This document shows positions 59,719-64,000 of a DNA stretch of 64,000 nt, one piece after another. A program made the position numbers and the translations under genes. The notes under the pieces are model-generated. The model searched no databases and was not told the origin of the DNA. It was given only the letters and a program-made list of their open reading frames with translations. The DNA is from a bacterium. GTDB taxonomy: Bacteria > Latescibacterota > Latescibacteria > Latescibacterales > Latescibacteraceae. Numbering within the stretch: the first letter of the stretch is position 1; the number at the start of each line of letters is the position of its first letter. The stretch is from NCBI GenBank assembly GCA_021372535.1, contig JAJFUH010000183.1, positions 1 to 64,000 on the forward strand. Direction: 5' to 3'.

Positions 59719-60813
59719 ATGTTTAACACGATTGTCATTGTTGGTGTCGGGCTGATCGGCGGATCATTCGGACTTGCGATAAAACGAAAGTATCCCGGAA
59801 TTCGTATCATCGGTGTTTCATCCCGAGCCGCAACAGCCAGCGCCATCGAGATGGGAGCGGTCAACGAAGGCTGCGGTTACGAAGAGCTCGGAGATGCGGT
59901 TGCCAGCGCCGATTGCGTGGTGCTCTGTACACCGATACACCGTATCCAGGGGCTTCTCACTGTTCTGGGCTCATCGCTGAAACCGGGTGTCCTCGTTTCC
60001 GATGTCGGCTCGACCAAACGCGCCATCACCGAACATGCGGCAATGGTGCTTCCCCGGGGAGTTCACTTTATCGGCGGTCATCCGATGACCGGTTCCGAAC
60101 GCCGCGGTGTCGATGCTGCCGATCCGTTCCTGTTTCAGAACGCCATATATGTTCTTACACCCGTTGATGGCGTTCCGAAAGCCATTGTTGAAAGCTTCAG
60201 CAGATTTCTCGAAACCCTCGGAGCTACCGTTATCATCATGGATGCCGCCGTACATGACCGCATTGCTGCCACAGTCAGTCATCTTCCTCAGATGCTTGCG
60301 GTAACTCTCGTCGAAATGGCAGGTAAACTCGATAGCGAATCCGCGCCGTACCTCAGGCTTGCCGCCGGAGGTTTCCGTGACATGACCCGGATTGCTTCAA
60401 GTCCTTTCACCATGTGGGACGATATATGCCGAACGAACGACGATGCCATAAAAGAGGCTCTCGATTCGTATATCGATCATCTTCGACGTATCAGAGATCG
60501 TATCGGAACACCGGCGCTGGGAGAAGATTTCGAGATAGCTAATATTACACGGGCGACTATTCCAAAGGATACTAAAGGCTTCCTGCGCACCCTGTTCGAA
60601 GTCCTCGTCGTCGTCGAAGACAAACCCGGTGTTATCGCCGAAATCGCCACGGAGCTTGCCCGGGTTGACATCAATATCAAGGATATGGAAGTTGTCAAGG
60701 TCCGCGAAGGCGAAGGAGGGACGCTCCGGCTCTCGTTCGAGAATGAGCCGCTTGCGAACGATGCGGTTTCACTCCTCACCCGTCTCGGTTATACAGCCCG
60801 TCTGAGGAGGTAA
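59719..60813 (+). CDS. tyrA: prephenate dehydrogenase with C-terminal ACT domain
   Basis: 364 residues. Oxidatively decarboxylates prephenate to 4-hydroxyphenylpyruvate for tyrosine. The Rossmann motif VGVGLIGGSFG is at residues 8-18. FIGGHPMTGSE is the prephenate-binding loop with catalytic His, and SHLPQMLAVTL is the second helical motif. The C-terminal ACT domain (about 290-364, VVVEDKPGVIAEIA) is expected to sense tyrosine. The aroA-like gene starts one base after the stop and is therefore co-translated. Confidence 0.93.
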   Translation: MFNTIVIVGVGLIGGSFGLAIKRKYPGIRIIGVSSRAATASAIEMGAVNEGCGYEELGDAVASADCVVLCTPIHRIQGLLTVLGSSLKPGVLVSDVGSTKRAITEHAAMVLPRGVHFIGGHPMTGSERRGVDAADPFLFQNAIYVLTPVDGVPKAIVESFSRFLETLGATVIIMDAAVHDRIAATVSHLPQMLAVTLVEMAGKLDSESAPYLRLAAGGFRDMTRIASSPFTMWDDICRTNDDAIKEALDSYIDHLRRIRDRIGTPALGEDFEIANITRATIPKDTKGFLRTLFEVLVVVEDKPGVIAEIATELARVDINIKDMEVVKVREGEGGTLRLSFENEPLANDAVSLLTRLGYTARLRR

Positions 60814-60814
60814 G

Positions 60815-62155
60815 GTGCAGTTCACGGTTTCTTCTCCCGGGCCTCTATCCGGCAGTATAATCCTTCCCGGTGATCTCAGGCTGACACTCGTGCTCATGTC
60901 GCTTGGCATGTTCGTTGAAAAGCCGTTGACGATCCTCAATCCATCTACGGCGCCCGATGTTGAAAAACTACGGGCATTCCTCGCAAGACATGGCGCGAGC
61001 ATTACCGACACGGAGGAAGGATTTACGATGCGGGGCACGCGGCTGGCCGGCGATGTTATACTGGATCGCGACATTCCGGATGCCGTCATCCATTGTATCG
61101 CCACAGGTGCAGTATTCTGCGCAAAAACCGTAAAAATTATCGATGGCGAAACTGCACGGGCGCAATATGTACGACCCCTTATCAAACGGCTCGCGTCGGT
61201 TGGACTCGGTACTGACCATGTCACCGCCGATGGCGATGATGTGGTGATCAGGAGATGTGAATGTGCAGCGCCGGGACTGGTCACCGTGCATTCCCAGTGG
61301 GCTTTCGAGGTTATTATCACTGCCGCGCTGGCAGGACGGAGTTCCGTAACGGTTTCGCTCAATTCCGGCGCTGTATCGCCCTCGGAAAAGGTGCTCGGCG
61401 AGTTCGGGTGTACGCTATCGCCCGTTTCTGAAACGGGTGATACGCAGATTGAACTCGAACGCCGTATGGCAAGGATTTCAGGAGATAAAACACGCGGGAT
61501 TGTCACAGTGCAGTGGGCGGAGAAACCCGGGGAAGTGCGGGTTGAAATTCCGGGAGATTCCACACTTGCAGCCGCTGTTGCAGGTCTTGCCGCCGTGCTC
61601 CAGCGTTCGAGCGTAATTATCGAAAAGGTAGTATGGGATACGGGCCGCAGGGGATTTTTTGATACGCTTCGGCGGATGAAGGCGCGAGTGATACCTGATT
61701 CGGAGAAAAACGGTCGGCTGTTGGATATCGCGGATATAAGAGTTGACTGGAGCAGGCTTGACGGAGTTCATGTTACTCCCGAACAGGCACAGACAATGAC
61801 TGATGAGCTTCTCATACTCGCTTCTGTTGCGACTGCCGCTCCCGGGGAAACGGTTATTAGCGATATTACCGATGCACCGGGAGTGGGAAGGGAAGCGTTC
61901 AAGCTTCTTGCGCGCGGACTTGAAAAATGCGGTATCCGTGTCGGCGATTTCACCGAAGGTATTGTACTGCGCGGGGGAGGTGAGCTGCAAGGCGGTGTCC
62001 TCGATTCGGGAGGGAAGCCGGATGTGGCGCTTGCACTTGCCGTTGCGGGTATGACGGCATCAAGTGCGGTGACCATTGATGGTTCCGGAAGTGATGACTA
62101 TCCTGTCAGTGAATTTCTGAGGCTCGTCAGGGAGCTTTCCGGAAGGATTTTATAA
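60815..62155 (+). CDS. EPSP-synthase-fold protein lacking catalytic residues
   Basis: 446 residues, start GTG with GGAGG at 60806-60810. The length and repeated inside-out alpha/beta pattern match AroA. By hand alignment to E. coli AroA, the Lys22-Ser23...Arg27 loop is Leu21-Arg22...Val26; the GNAGTAMRPL loop with Arg100 is lost; the VKETDR loop with Glu341 and Arg344 reads GVGREAF; and the NDHRMA loop with His385-Arg386 reads GGKPDVA. Gln161 (Q171 equivalent) and Asp330 (D313 equivalent) remain. It cannot be a normal EPSP synthase. Its place between tyrA and aroE is where aroA is expected. It could be regulatory, a neofunctionalised enzyme, or part of a complex. The fold call is moderately confident. 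Confidence 0.78.
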   Translation: MQFTVSSPGPLSGSIILPGDLRLTLVLMSLGMFVEKPLTILNPSTAPDVEKLRAFLARHGASITDTEEGFTMRGTRLAGDVILDRDIPDAVIHCIATGAVFCAKTVKIIDGETARAQYVRPLIKRLASVGLGTDHVTADGDDVVIRRCECAAPGLVTVHSQWAFEVIITAALAGRSSVTVSLNSGAVSPSEKVLGEFGCTLSPVSETGDTQIELERRMARISGDKTRGIVTVQWAEKPGEVRVEIPGDSTLAAAVAGLAAVLQRSSVIIEKVVWDTGRRGFFDTLRRMKARVIPDSEKNGRLLDIADIRVDWSRLDGVHVTPEQAQTMTDELLILASVATAAPGETVISDITDAPGVGREAFKLLARGLEKCGIRVGDFTEGIVLRGGGELQGGVLDSGGKPDVALALAVAGMTASSAVTIDGSGSDDYPVSEFLRLVRELSGRIL

Positions 62156-62615: not shown

Positions 62616-62807
62616 ATGAAATCATTTATCAGGTTTCTGGCGGCATTGGCTACGGTACTTTTTGTGCTTGTCGCTGTCATTAAATTCGTGCAGCGGTGCT
62701 CATGGAAAGAGGCTGTAGGAATTCTCGAAGAATTCTGTAAAGAGGCGCATGGAAGCTGCTGCTCGAGAAAAGGGCCGGCAGAGGAAGATATTCCGGAAGA
62801 GGCTTGA
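62616..62807 (+). CDS. small single-pass membrane protein with C-terminal cysteines
   Basis: 63 residues from an ATG with GGAGG (62604-62608) seven bases ahead; a GTG at 62613 is the alternative. One transmembrane helix (about 5-25, FLAALATVLFVLVAVIKFV) is followed by a polar tail with four cysteines (around FCKEAHGSCCSRK and RCSWK) and an acidic end. No family is recognised. The stop lies just ahead of or overlapping the aroE start, so it is co-expressed with the aromatic pathway genes. The strong ribosome-binding site and coupling argue that it is real. Confidence 0.65.
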   Translation: MKSFIRFLAALATVLFVLVAVIKFVQRCSWKEAVGILEEFCKEAHGSCCSRKGPAEEDIPEEA

Positions 62808-62812
62808 GCGGA

Positions 62813-63679
62813 ATGCTTTTACGCGGTACGACAATGGTTTGCGGAATTATCGGGGATCCGGTCGGTCACAGCATGTCGCCCCATATGCAGACGAAAGCAA
62901 TGGAAAAAATGGGGTTTGACGGCGTCTATGTCCCGTTCCATGTGAAATCCGGAGACCTTGAAAACGCCGTTCGCGGAATTGTTGCACTCGACATCAGGGG
63001 CATGAATGTAACAGTGCCTCACAAAACAGCGGTTATGCAGTATCTCGACCGTCTTACCGATGACGCCCGGGCTGTGGGAGCGGTCAATACGATCATCAAT
63101 GAGCATGGTTTGCTGACCGGTGATAACACCGACGTGTACGGATTCGTCCAGGGGCTTCTCAGGGAAGAGGGAGTCGATTCCTTTCCCGCAAAGGTCTGTA
63201 TCATCGGAGCCGGGGGCGCCGCGAGAGCCGTTATATATGGATGCGCAACCCGTCCGGAGGTCGAGGAAATCTGCATCCTCAATCGGACACTGCCGAAGGC
63301 TCAGAATCTCGCGACGGAATTTTCAGGGAAAACGGGAAAAAAAATTGCCTCCTGTCCTTTCGATGAAAAAACCATTTCCGAGGTTATTCCCGCTGCGTCG
63401 CTCGTGATCAACACGACAACAATCGGGATGCATCCCCATGAAGATGCGTCGCCGGTGCCCGATCCTTCGGTGTTTCGCACCGGACAGATTGTTTACGATA
63501 TTGTTATTCCCCCCATGCAGACAACGCTGCTGAAAGAAGCCGCTGCAAGAGGGGCTCGTACTGTCGGCGGTCTTTCCATGCTTGCCTGCCAGGGCGCACG
63601 ATCACTCGAATTGTGGACAGGCCATGACGCCCCTGAGGAGTTCATGGCGGCCATTCTTCGTGGTCAGTTCAGATCATAA
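62813..63679 (+). CDS. aroE: shikimate dehydrogenase
   Basis: 288 residues. Reduces 3-dehydroshikimate to shikimate with NADPH. GDPVGHSMSPHM is the substrate-binding start, catalytic Lys71 is in VTVPHKTAV, catalytic Asp107 in TGDNTDVYG, the NADP loop is GAGGAARA followed by NRT, and INTTTIGMHP and GGLSMLACQGARSLELWTG complete the C-terminus. The start is uncertain between a TTG at 62804 overlapping the upstream stop, the ATG at 62813 and an ATG at 62834; I use 62813. It precedes aroB by 80 bases. Confidence 0.95.
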   Translation: MLLRGTTMVCGIIGDPVGHSMSPHMQTKAMEKMGFDGVYVPFHVKSGDLENAVRGIVALDIRGMNVTVPHKTAVMQYLDRLTDDARAVGAVNTIINEHGLLTGDNTDVYGFVQGLLREEGVDSFPAKVCIIGAGGAARAVIYGCATRPEVEEICILNRTLPKAQNLATEFSGKTGKKIASCPFDEKTISEVIPAASLVINTTTIGMHPHEDASPVPDPSVFRTGQIVYDIVIPPMQTTLLKEAAARGARTVGGLSMLACQGARSLELWTGHDAPEEFMAAILRGQFRS

Positions 63680-63759: not shown

Positions 63760-64000
63760 ATGGAAACAGTTTTAGTCGAGTTTGCTGAACGTTCGTATGA
63801 TATCATGATCAGAAGCGGCAGTCTCCGTCGGGCCGGTTCATTTATTCGCACCTGTATAGCGGAAAAACCTGCAAAAGCAGCCATCGTAACAACGGAAACG
63901 GTGGCCGGCCTGTACCTTGACACAGTGCTGAAGTCAATAGAAGCGGAAGGCTATTCCGTTACTGCTGTTGTTGTGCCGGATGGCGAGGAATTTAAAACTC
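63760..64000 (+). CDS. aroB: 3-dehydroquinate synthase, 3'-truncated by window edge
   Basis: Only the first 80 residues are present. The ATG at 63760 begins METVLVEFAERSYDIMI, followed by VTTETVAGLYLDTVLKS and VVVPDGEEFKT, the NAD-binding N-terminal domain of AroB. In the intact family the enzyme cyclises DAHP to 3-dehydroquinate, two steps before the AroE reaction. The frame runs off the end of the window with no stop. The identification rests on the PDGE-x-KT motif and the aroE neighbourhood. Confidence 0.88.
   Translation, partial: METVLVEFAERSYDIMIRSGSLRRAGSFIRTCIAEKPAKAAIVTTETVAGLYLDTVLKSIEAEGYSVTAVVVPDGEEFKT

Follow-up and report, generated by a model that had tools for sequence, protein, structure and literature searches.

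Introduction

EPSP synthase (AroA), the target of glyphosate, is among the most studied of all enzymes and is regarded simply as a catalyst.

A case in which the protein outlived its activity has been described in Pseudomonas syringae, where the EPSP synthase fused to tyrA lost catalysis, with about 200 N-terminal residues deleted; the loss was coupled with the gain of a stand-alone EPSP synthase, probably by transfer, and the authors proposed that the remaining part could turn into a new regulatory domain (PMC1173090). At another step of the same pathway, Aro1 of Candida albicans retains an inactive dehydroquinase (DHQase) domain, the unrelated Dqd1 appears to supply the activity, and deletion of the domain caused no detectable growth defect (PMC9074039). 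A literature search on EPSP synthase pseudoenzymes and on Latescibacterota aroA yielded no direct description of such a protein. Here, we analyze a homologue of AroA, referred to as pseudo-AroA, that is encoded in the window, the whole stretch of 64,000 nucleotides under study, and follow its relatives across a sample of 64 Latescibacterota genomes.

The gene and its neighbors

The reading frame of pseudo-AroA is unbroken and starts with GTG (Table 1). Because the stop codon of tyrA, TAA, occupies positions 60811–60813, one base lies between the two genes. An earlier note, made from the DNA sequence alone, had described an intact frame with a ribosome-binding site and a start one base after tyrA, and the positions of AGGAGG and TAA agree with that description. 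The note also called the gene fused by position to tyrA, which holds as far as the two adjoin each other; they are nevertheless separate open reading frames, divided by a stop codon and one base, and do not form a single chain. In line with this, the profile of the bifunctional TyrA-AroA, NF011381, gave 85 bits with the window protein, compared to a cut-off of 902. Frames of 656–740 amino acids had led us to suspect true TyrA fusions, a candidate that we rejected, as they proved to be long open frames upstream that are read in a different frame from tyrA.

Profile scores place the window protein in the enolpyruvyl transferase superfamily, with a PF00275 match of 77.2 bits against a cut-off of 22.8, which bears out the EPSP synthase relationship suggested earlier; yet with the NCBIfam aroA model TIGR01356 it reaches only 91.5 bits, far under the cut-off of 287, indicating that it falls outside the AroA equivalog. 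An origin from MurA was rejected, because the two MurA models gave 21.2 bits (cut-off 297) and 19.1 bits (cut-off 392.7).

Table 1. Features of the window around pseudo-AroA, with the evidence for each
Feature	Position	Strand	Evidence and remarks
tyrA, prephenate dehydrogenase with C-terminal ACT domain	59719..60813	+	PF02153, PF20463, PF01842; always upstream of pseudo-AroA
AGGAGG ribosome-binding site of pseudo-AroA	60805..60810	+	direct sequence reading; overlaps tyrA 3' end
pseudo-AroA, putative displaced, non-catalytic EPSP synthase, 446 aa	60815..62155	+	PF00275 and TIGR01356 scores; catalytic residues lost
domain I region, ~residues 21–240, fast-evolving	60875..61534	+	boundaries approximate (E. 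coli EPSP synthase alignment); excised in g5 and f10 relatives
domain II region, ~residues 241–446 (plus N-terminal strand 1–20), conserved core	61535..62152	+	conserved columns; fold of the L068 protein
single-transmembrane microprotein (MKSFIRFLAALATVLFVLVAVIKFVQRCSWKEAVGILEEF...), 63 aa, unannotated	62616..62807	+	profile match E 1e-21
aroE, shikimate dehydrogenase; start TTG 62804 or ATG 62813	62804..63679	+	NF001319 266.6 bits (cut-off 252); TIGR00507 233.8 bits (cut-off 200.2)
aroB, presumably 3-dehydroquinate synthase, runs past window end	63760..64000	+	matches aroB-like ORF of locus L107; continues in L054

The last frame of the window we take to be aroB by recognition of its sequence and not from a family scan. 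The microprotein encoded between pseudo-AroA and aroE, a position that it occupies in all complete loci, has profile matches in 51 of the 64 genomes; its relatives are 46–67 amino acids long and share the motif SW-K/R-E-S/A (loci L034–L052, L107 and L112–L143). A Pfam scan of the microprotein gave no family over its cut-off. In family f5 it is encoded away from aroE.

Distribution and gene order across Latescibacterota

In families f1, f3, f8, f9 and f10, pseudo-AroA is carried by 48 of 51 genomes, and it was found in none of the 13 genomes of families f2, f4, f5, f6 and f7. Two of the three non-carriers in the former group, G045 and G027, are incomplete, with tyrA not found either. In the third, G003, which belongs to the window's family and is 97% complete, the gene has been lost and tyrA, the microprotein gene, aroE and aroB still follow in order (L107, 6071–6457), so that pseudo-AroA is dispensable in this genome; comparison of TyrA and AroE divergence in G003 revealed no clear acceleration after the loss. 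In a scan of the genome contigs, a profile built from a narrow alignment named 19 loci, 18 of the pseudo-AroA family and one encoding a catalytic Chloroflexota AroA. The same contigs scanned with the window protein as a single query gave no relatives.

The order tyrA, pseudo-AroA, microprotein, aroE on one strand is found in all 42 complete loci fetched, which represent the five families, and in the window. The surroundings vary: in the f3, f9 and f10 loci the cluster is preceded by DAHP synthase and followed by a UbiE-like gene; aroB comes directly after the cluster in f1, and in many loci of f8, f3 and f9 it lies a few kilobases further downstream. At one f10 locus (L114, 4369–5331) a kinase-like gene, judged APH-like by eye, is inserted between tyrA and a single-domain pseudo-AroA. 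In G047, aroE seems to be split into two open frames (L044, 6931–7821); the cause would be an in-frame stop codon, a frameshift or a fault in the assembly.

Loss of the active site

As the residue reference we used E. coli AroA (a sequence with one residue different from 1g6s). In the window protein the equivalents of K22, S23, R27, N94, R124, K340, E341, R344, H385, R386 and K411 are replaced, and among K22, S23, R27, R124, D313, E341, R344, H385, R386 and K411 only D313 is kept. The protein is thus an enzyme homologue that has lost its active site, as the earlier note had concluded from the substrate and PEP residues. That note named Q171 and D313 as the two residues remaining, of which D313 is indeed present, and Q171 depends on the alignment: it is kept in the pairwise alignment to the E. 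coli protein, but in multiple alignments it falls one residue out of register, making its position ambiguous. The D313 position is occupied by H and A in the two same-family relatives and has therefore not been conserved for catalysis. Across the phylum, pseudo-AroAs keep 0–4 of 14 substrate and PEP residues, compared to 12–14 of 14 in the catalytic AroAs, and at least 10 of the 14 are gone in every full-length pseudo-AroA, the PEP-binding arginines among them. Judged by these alignments, pseudo-AroA is almost certainly non-catalytic as an EPSP synthase.

Domain II is the conserved part and domain I is lost in some relatives

The two domains have evolved differently. Every comparison gives domain II a higher identity than domain I, with a ratio of up to 2.3-fold between the window family and the native AroAs of the phylum; comparisons inside each group of catalytic AroAs give a ratio of 1.0–1.1. 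All of domain I is missing from the proteins of genus g5 (11 genomes, including two single-contig ones) and of f10 (G041), which measure 219–227 amino acids and have the N-terminal strand of domain II joined directly to the second part of that domain. The two cases look like separate excisions, because the TyrA tree puts g5 and f10 into separate clades and both have full-length relatives.

Structure prediction supports domain II as a self-contained unit. For the 219-residue protein of locus L068, which consists of domain II only, AF2 gave a pLDDT of 93.9 and a pTM of 0.90, and the best PDB matches of the model are EPSP synthases (TMq ~0.8 over about half their length). The model of the window protein is weaker (pLDDT 69.1, pTM 0.48), with domain I and the arrangement of the domains poorly modelled (rmsd ~24 Å over both domains); its best Foldseek PDB matches are likewise EPSP synthases (E 1.8e-20), so that both models point to the fold expected by the earlier note.

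These data bear on the proposal, raised in the earlier note, that pseudo-AroA is an enzyme with a new reaction in a remodelled interdomain cleft. Full-length forms do persist in f1, f8, f9 and most f3 genera, and f1 has a conserved set of its own that includes W162, F164, E165, R278, R279, R359, E360 and D403, albeit in three sequences only. A search of the conserved columns for a new polar set common to all pseudo-AroA families found none, however, and the residues lining the cleft differ between f1, f8 and f3/f9. Moreover, the EPSP synthase cleft needs both domains and cannot be formed by a single one, and g5 and f10 deleted domain I and the cleft with it, ruling out cleft catalysis in these two lineages. 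A new reaction is therefore unlikely.

Selection is purifying but relaxed

Selection on pseudo-AroA was estimated in genera g5, g15 and g16 and in family f9, where dN/dS (NG86) is 0.19–0.29 over 88 non-independent pairs. In the same genomes the values are 0.07–0.17 for tyrA and 0.11–0.22 for aroE. Selection on the gene is thus purifying but relaxed in all four groups sampled. The earlier note had considered the window gene to be selected for; this holds for the groups measured, and in the window's own family dS is saturated and the evidence consists of two relatives at 51% and 42% identity, which have an open frame and the same gene order.

Relaxation could also mean that pseudo-AroA is a slowly decaying, functionless remnant of a displaced AroA. 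Its dN/dS is ~1.3 to 3 times that of its neighbors, two lineages have lost domain I, and the whole gene is gone from G003. Against decay stand the dN/dS values themselves, over many if non-independent pairs, and the open frames and identical gene order retained in five families, and the excision of domain I was precise, leaving a globular domain that is predicted with confidence. We consider decay quite unlikely and a retained, non-enzymatic role to be the better reading of these observations.

Catalytic AroAs of the carriers

The genome of the window encodes a separate, complete catalytic AroA on contig C72, as well as MurA on contig C161, which answers the question, raised in the earlier note, of a second complete aroA in the genome. 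Overall, 45 of the 48 carriers encode a catalytic AroA. The TIGR01356 profile finds it in 44 of the 48, the protein of G022 being truncated and just below the cut-off. The profile missed the AroA of G059 (genus g10, L197) at E 1e-60, a divergent catalytic type with 12 of 14 listed residues, and we dropped the suggestion from this search that g10 genomes are without any catalytic AroA. The carriers in which no catalytic AroA was found are G002 (80% complete), G053 (84%) and G023 (90%). Several f8 genomes (L146, L153, L156) encode, in addition to MurA, AroA and pseudo-AroA, another PF00275 protein that resembles MurA.

The catalytic AroAs are of at least four types, namely the f1 type, an E. coli-like type, the type of the f8 genera g11, g14, g16 and g20, and the G059 type. 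Judging from the separate clades that they occupy, they appear to have been acquired from other lineages; their genes lie on other contigs or far from pseudo-AroA.

Being homologous to AroA and accompanied by a catalytic AroA in nearly all carriers, pseudo-AroA might regulate or stabilize the acquired enzyme, e.g. as the partner in an unequal dimer. With acquired AroAs from at least four lineages, a conserved specific interface is unlikely, and the fixed neighbors of pseudo-AroA are tyrA, the microprotein gene and aroE rather than the distant aroA, so that we regard this possibility as very unlikely. It is hardly credible that pseudo-AroA still catalyzes the EPSP synthase reaction with relocated residues, since the D313 retained in the window protein and the Q171 seen in one alignment are outweighed by the loss of the PEP-binding arginines and most other listed residues in every full-length member, by H or A in place of D313 in the nearest relatives, and by the full catalytic AroA of the window genome.

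Probable origin from the native AroA

Two basal families without pseudo-AroA, f2 (L182) and f6 (L180), encode an AroA of the native lineage that has 13 of 14 active-site residues and lies directly upstream of aroE. The pseudo-AroA profile gives 343–379 bits with full-length native AroAs and 80–192 bits with other AroAs, and in domain II the window family shares 32% identity with the native type versus 21% with the acquired types. In the tree, the pseudo-AroAs of f3, f8 and f9 are placed beside the native lineage (SH-aLRT 89, not starred), and the remaining catalytic AroAs form clades of their own. The window family sits on a very long branch that the tree does not place firmly. The test of one clade for all pseudo-AroAs neither establishes nor rejects it (p-AU 0.41), so that catalysis may have been lost independently in the window family.

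The position of a same-lineage catalytic AroA directly upstream of aroE in f2 and f6 makes a displaced native AroA the most likely source of the gene. Together, tree, profile scores, domain II identities and aroA-aroE synteny lead us to read pseudo-AroA as, very probably, the native Latescibacterota AroA displaced in catalysis, and they speak against the term paralogue used in the earlier note.

Discussion

Most of the phylum keeps an inactive copy of AroA between tyrA and aroE, which suggests a second, non-catalytic job, and a selected non-enzymatic role is probable. As to how it arose, we lean towards a scenario in which the native AroA lost EPSP synthase catalysis in genomes that carried another AroA and the dead protein was retained through that second role, conceivably as a subunit of AroE or TyrA. 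The role would consist in protein binding, with domain II scaffolding or tuning AroE and/or TyrA, and the membrane microprotein encoded alongside may take part. Pseudo-AroA would then be what remains of an older AroE-AroA or TyrA-AroA complex. The scaffold or subunit idea of the earlier note thus stands as a leading one.

Whether AroE and/or TyrA is the partner is an evenly balanced judgement. AroE is a strong candidate because pseudo-AroA, the microprotein and aroE stay together even where the kinase-like gene separates them from tyrA, and because aroA and aroE also adjoin each other where a catalytic native AroA persists. The case for TyrA, the second candidate, rests on the one-base spacing in the window and on the precedent in P. 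syringae. More broadly, one may tentatively regard EPSP synthase domain II as a reusable protein-binding or regulatory module of aromatic biosynthesis that was freed from catalysis both in Latescibacterota, where it was first kept within a displaced full-length protein and later trimmed independently in g5 and f10, and in the TyrA-fused protein of P. syringae; such a module might bind TyrA or AroE and tune flux, in Latescibacterota together with the membrane microprotein.

If a native AroA has been kept without its active site while catalysis came from at least four other lineages, this would imply a second role for the bacterial AroA. In practical terms, as general profiles of the PF00275 type match pseudo-AroA, a quick aroA annotation would be wrong, as would predictions of the pathway or of glyphosate sensitivity that build on it.

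A pseudo-EPSP synthase is confirmed and widespread in Latescibacterota; the breadth of its occurrence and the repeated excision of a domain are new, and a precedent on a small scale had already been published. Compared with EPSP synthase proper (AroA; PF00275, TIGR01356), pseudo-AroA shares the profile homology, the structure of domain II and the place next to tyrA and aroE, but it is without the active site, scores under the equivalog cut-off, coexists with a separate catalytic AroA and has lost domain I in some members. The bifunctional TyrA-AroA (NF011381, PRK14806) likewise pairs TyrA with an EPSP synthase module, in that case as one catalytic chain, whereas Latescibacterota have two genes. 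Aro1 of C. albicans is similar in that shikimate-pathway catalysis was displaced and the domain retained, and differs in that it concerns the dehydroquinase step and a eukaryotic multidomain enzyme. The closest precedent remains P. syringae, one species within a clade of fusion proteins, in which the remnant is fused to TyrA; pseudo-AroA, in contrast, is found in most of a phylum, as a separate gene that is often full length and for which purifying selection has been measured.
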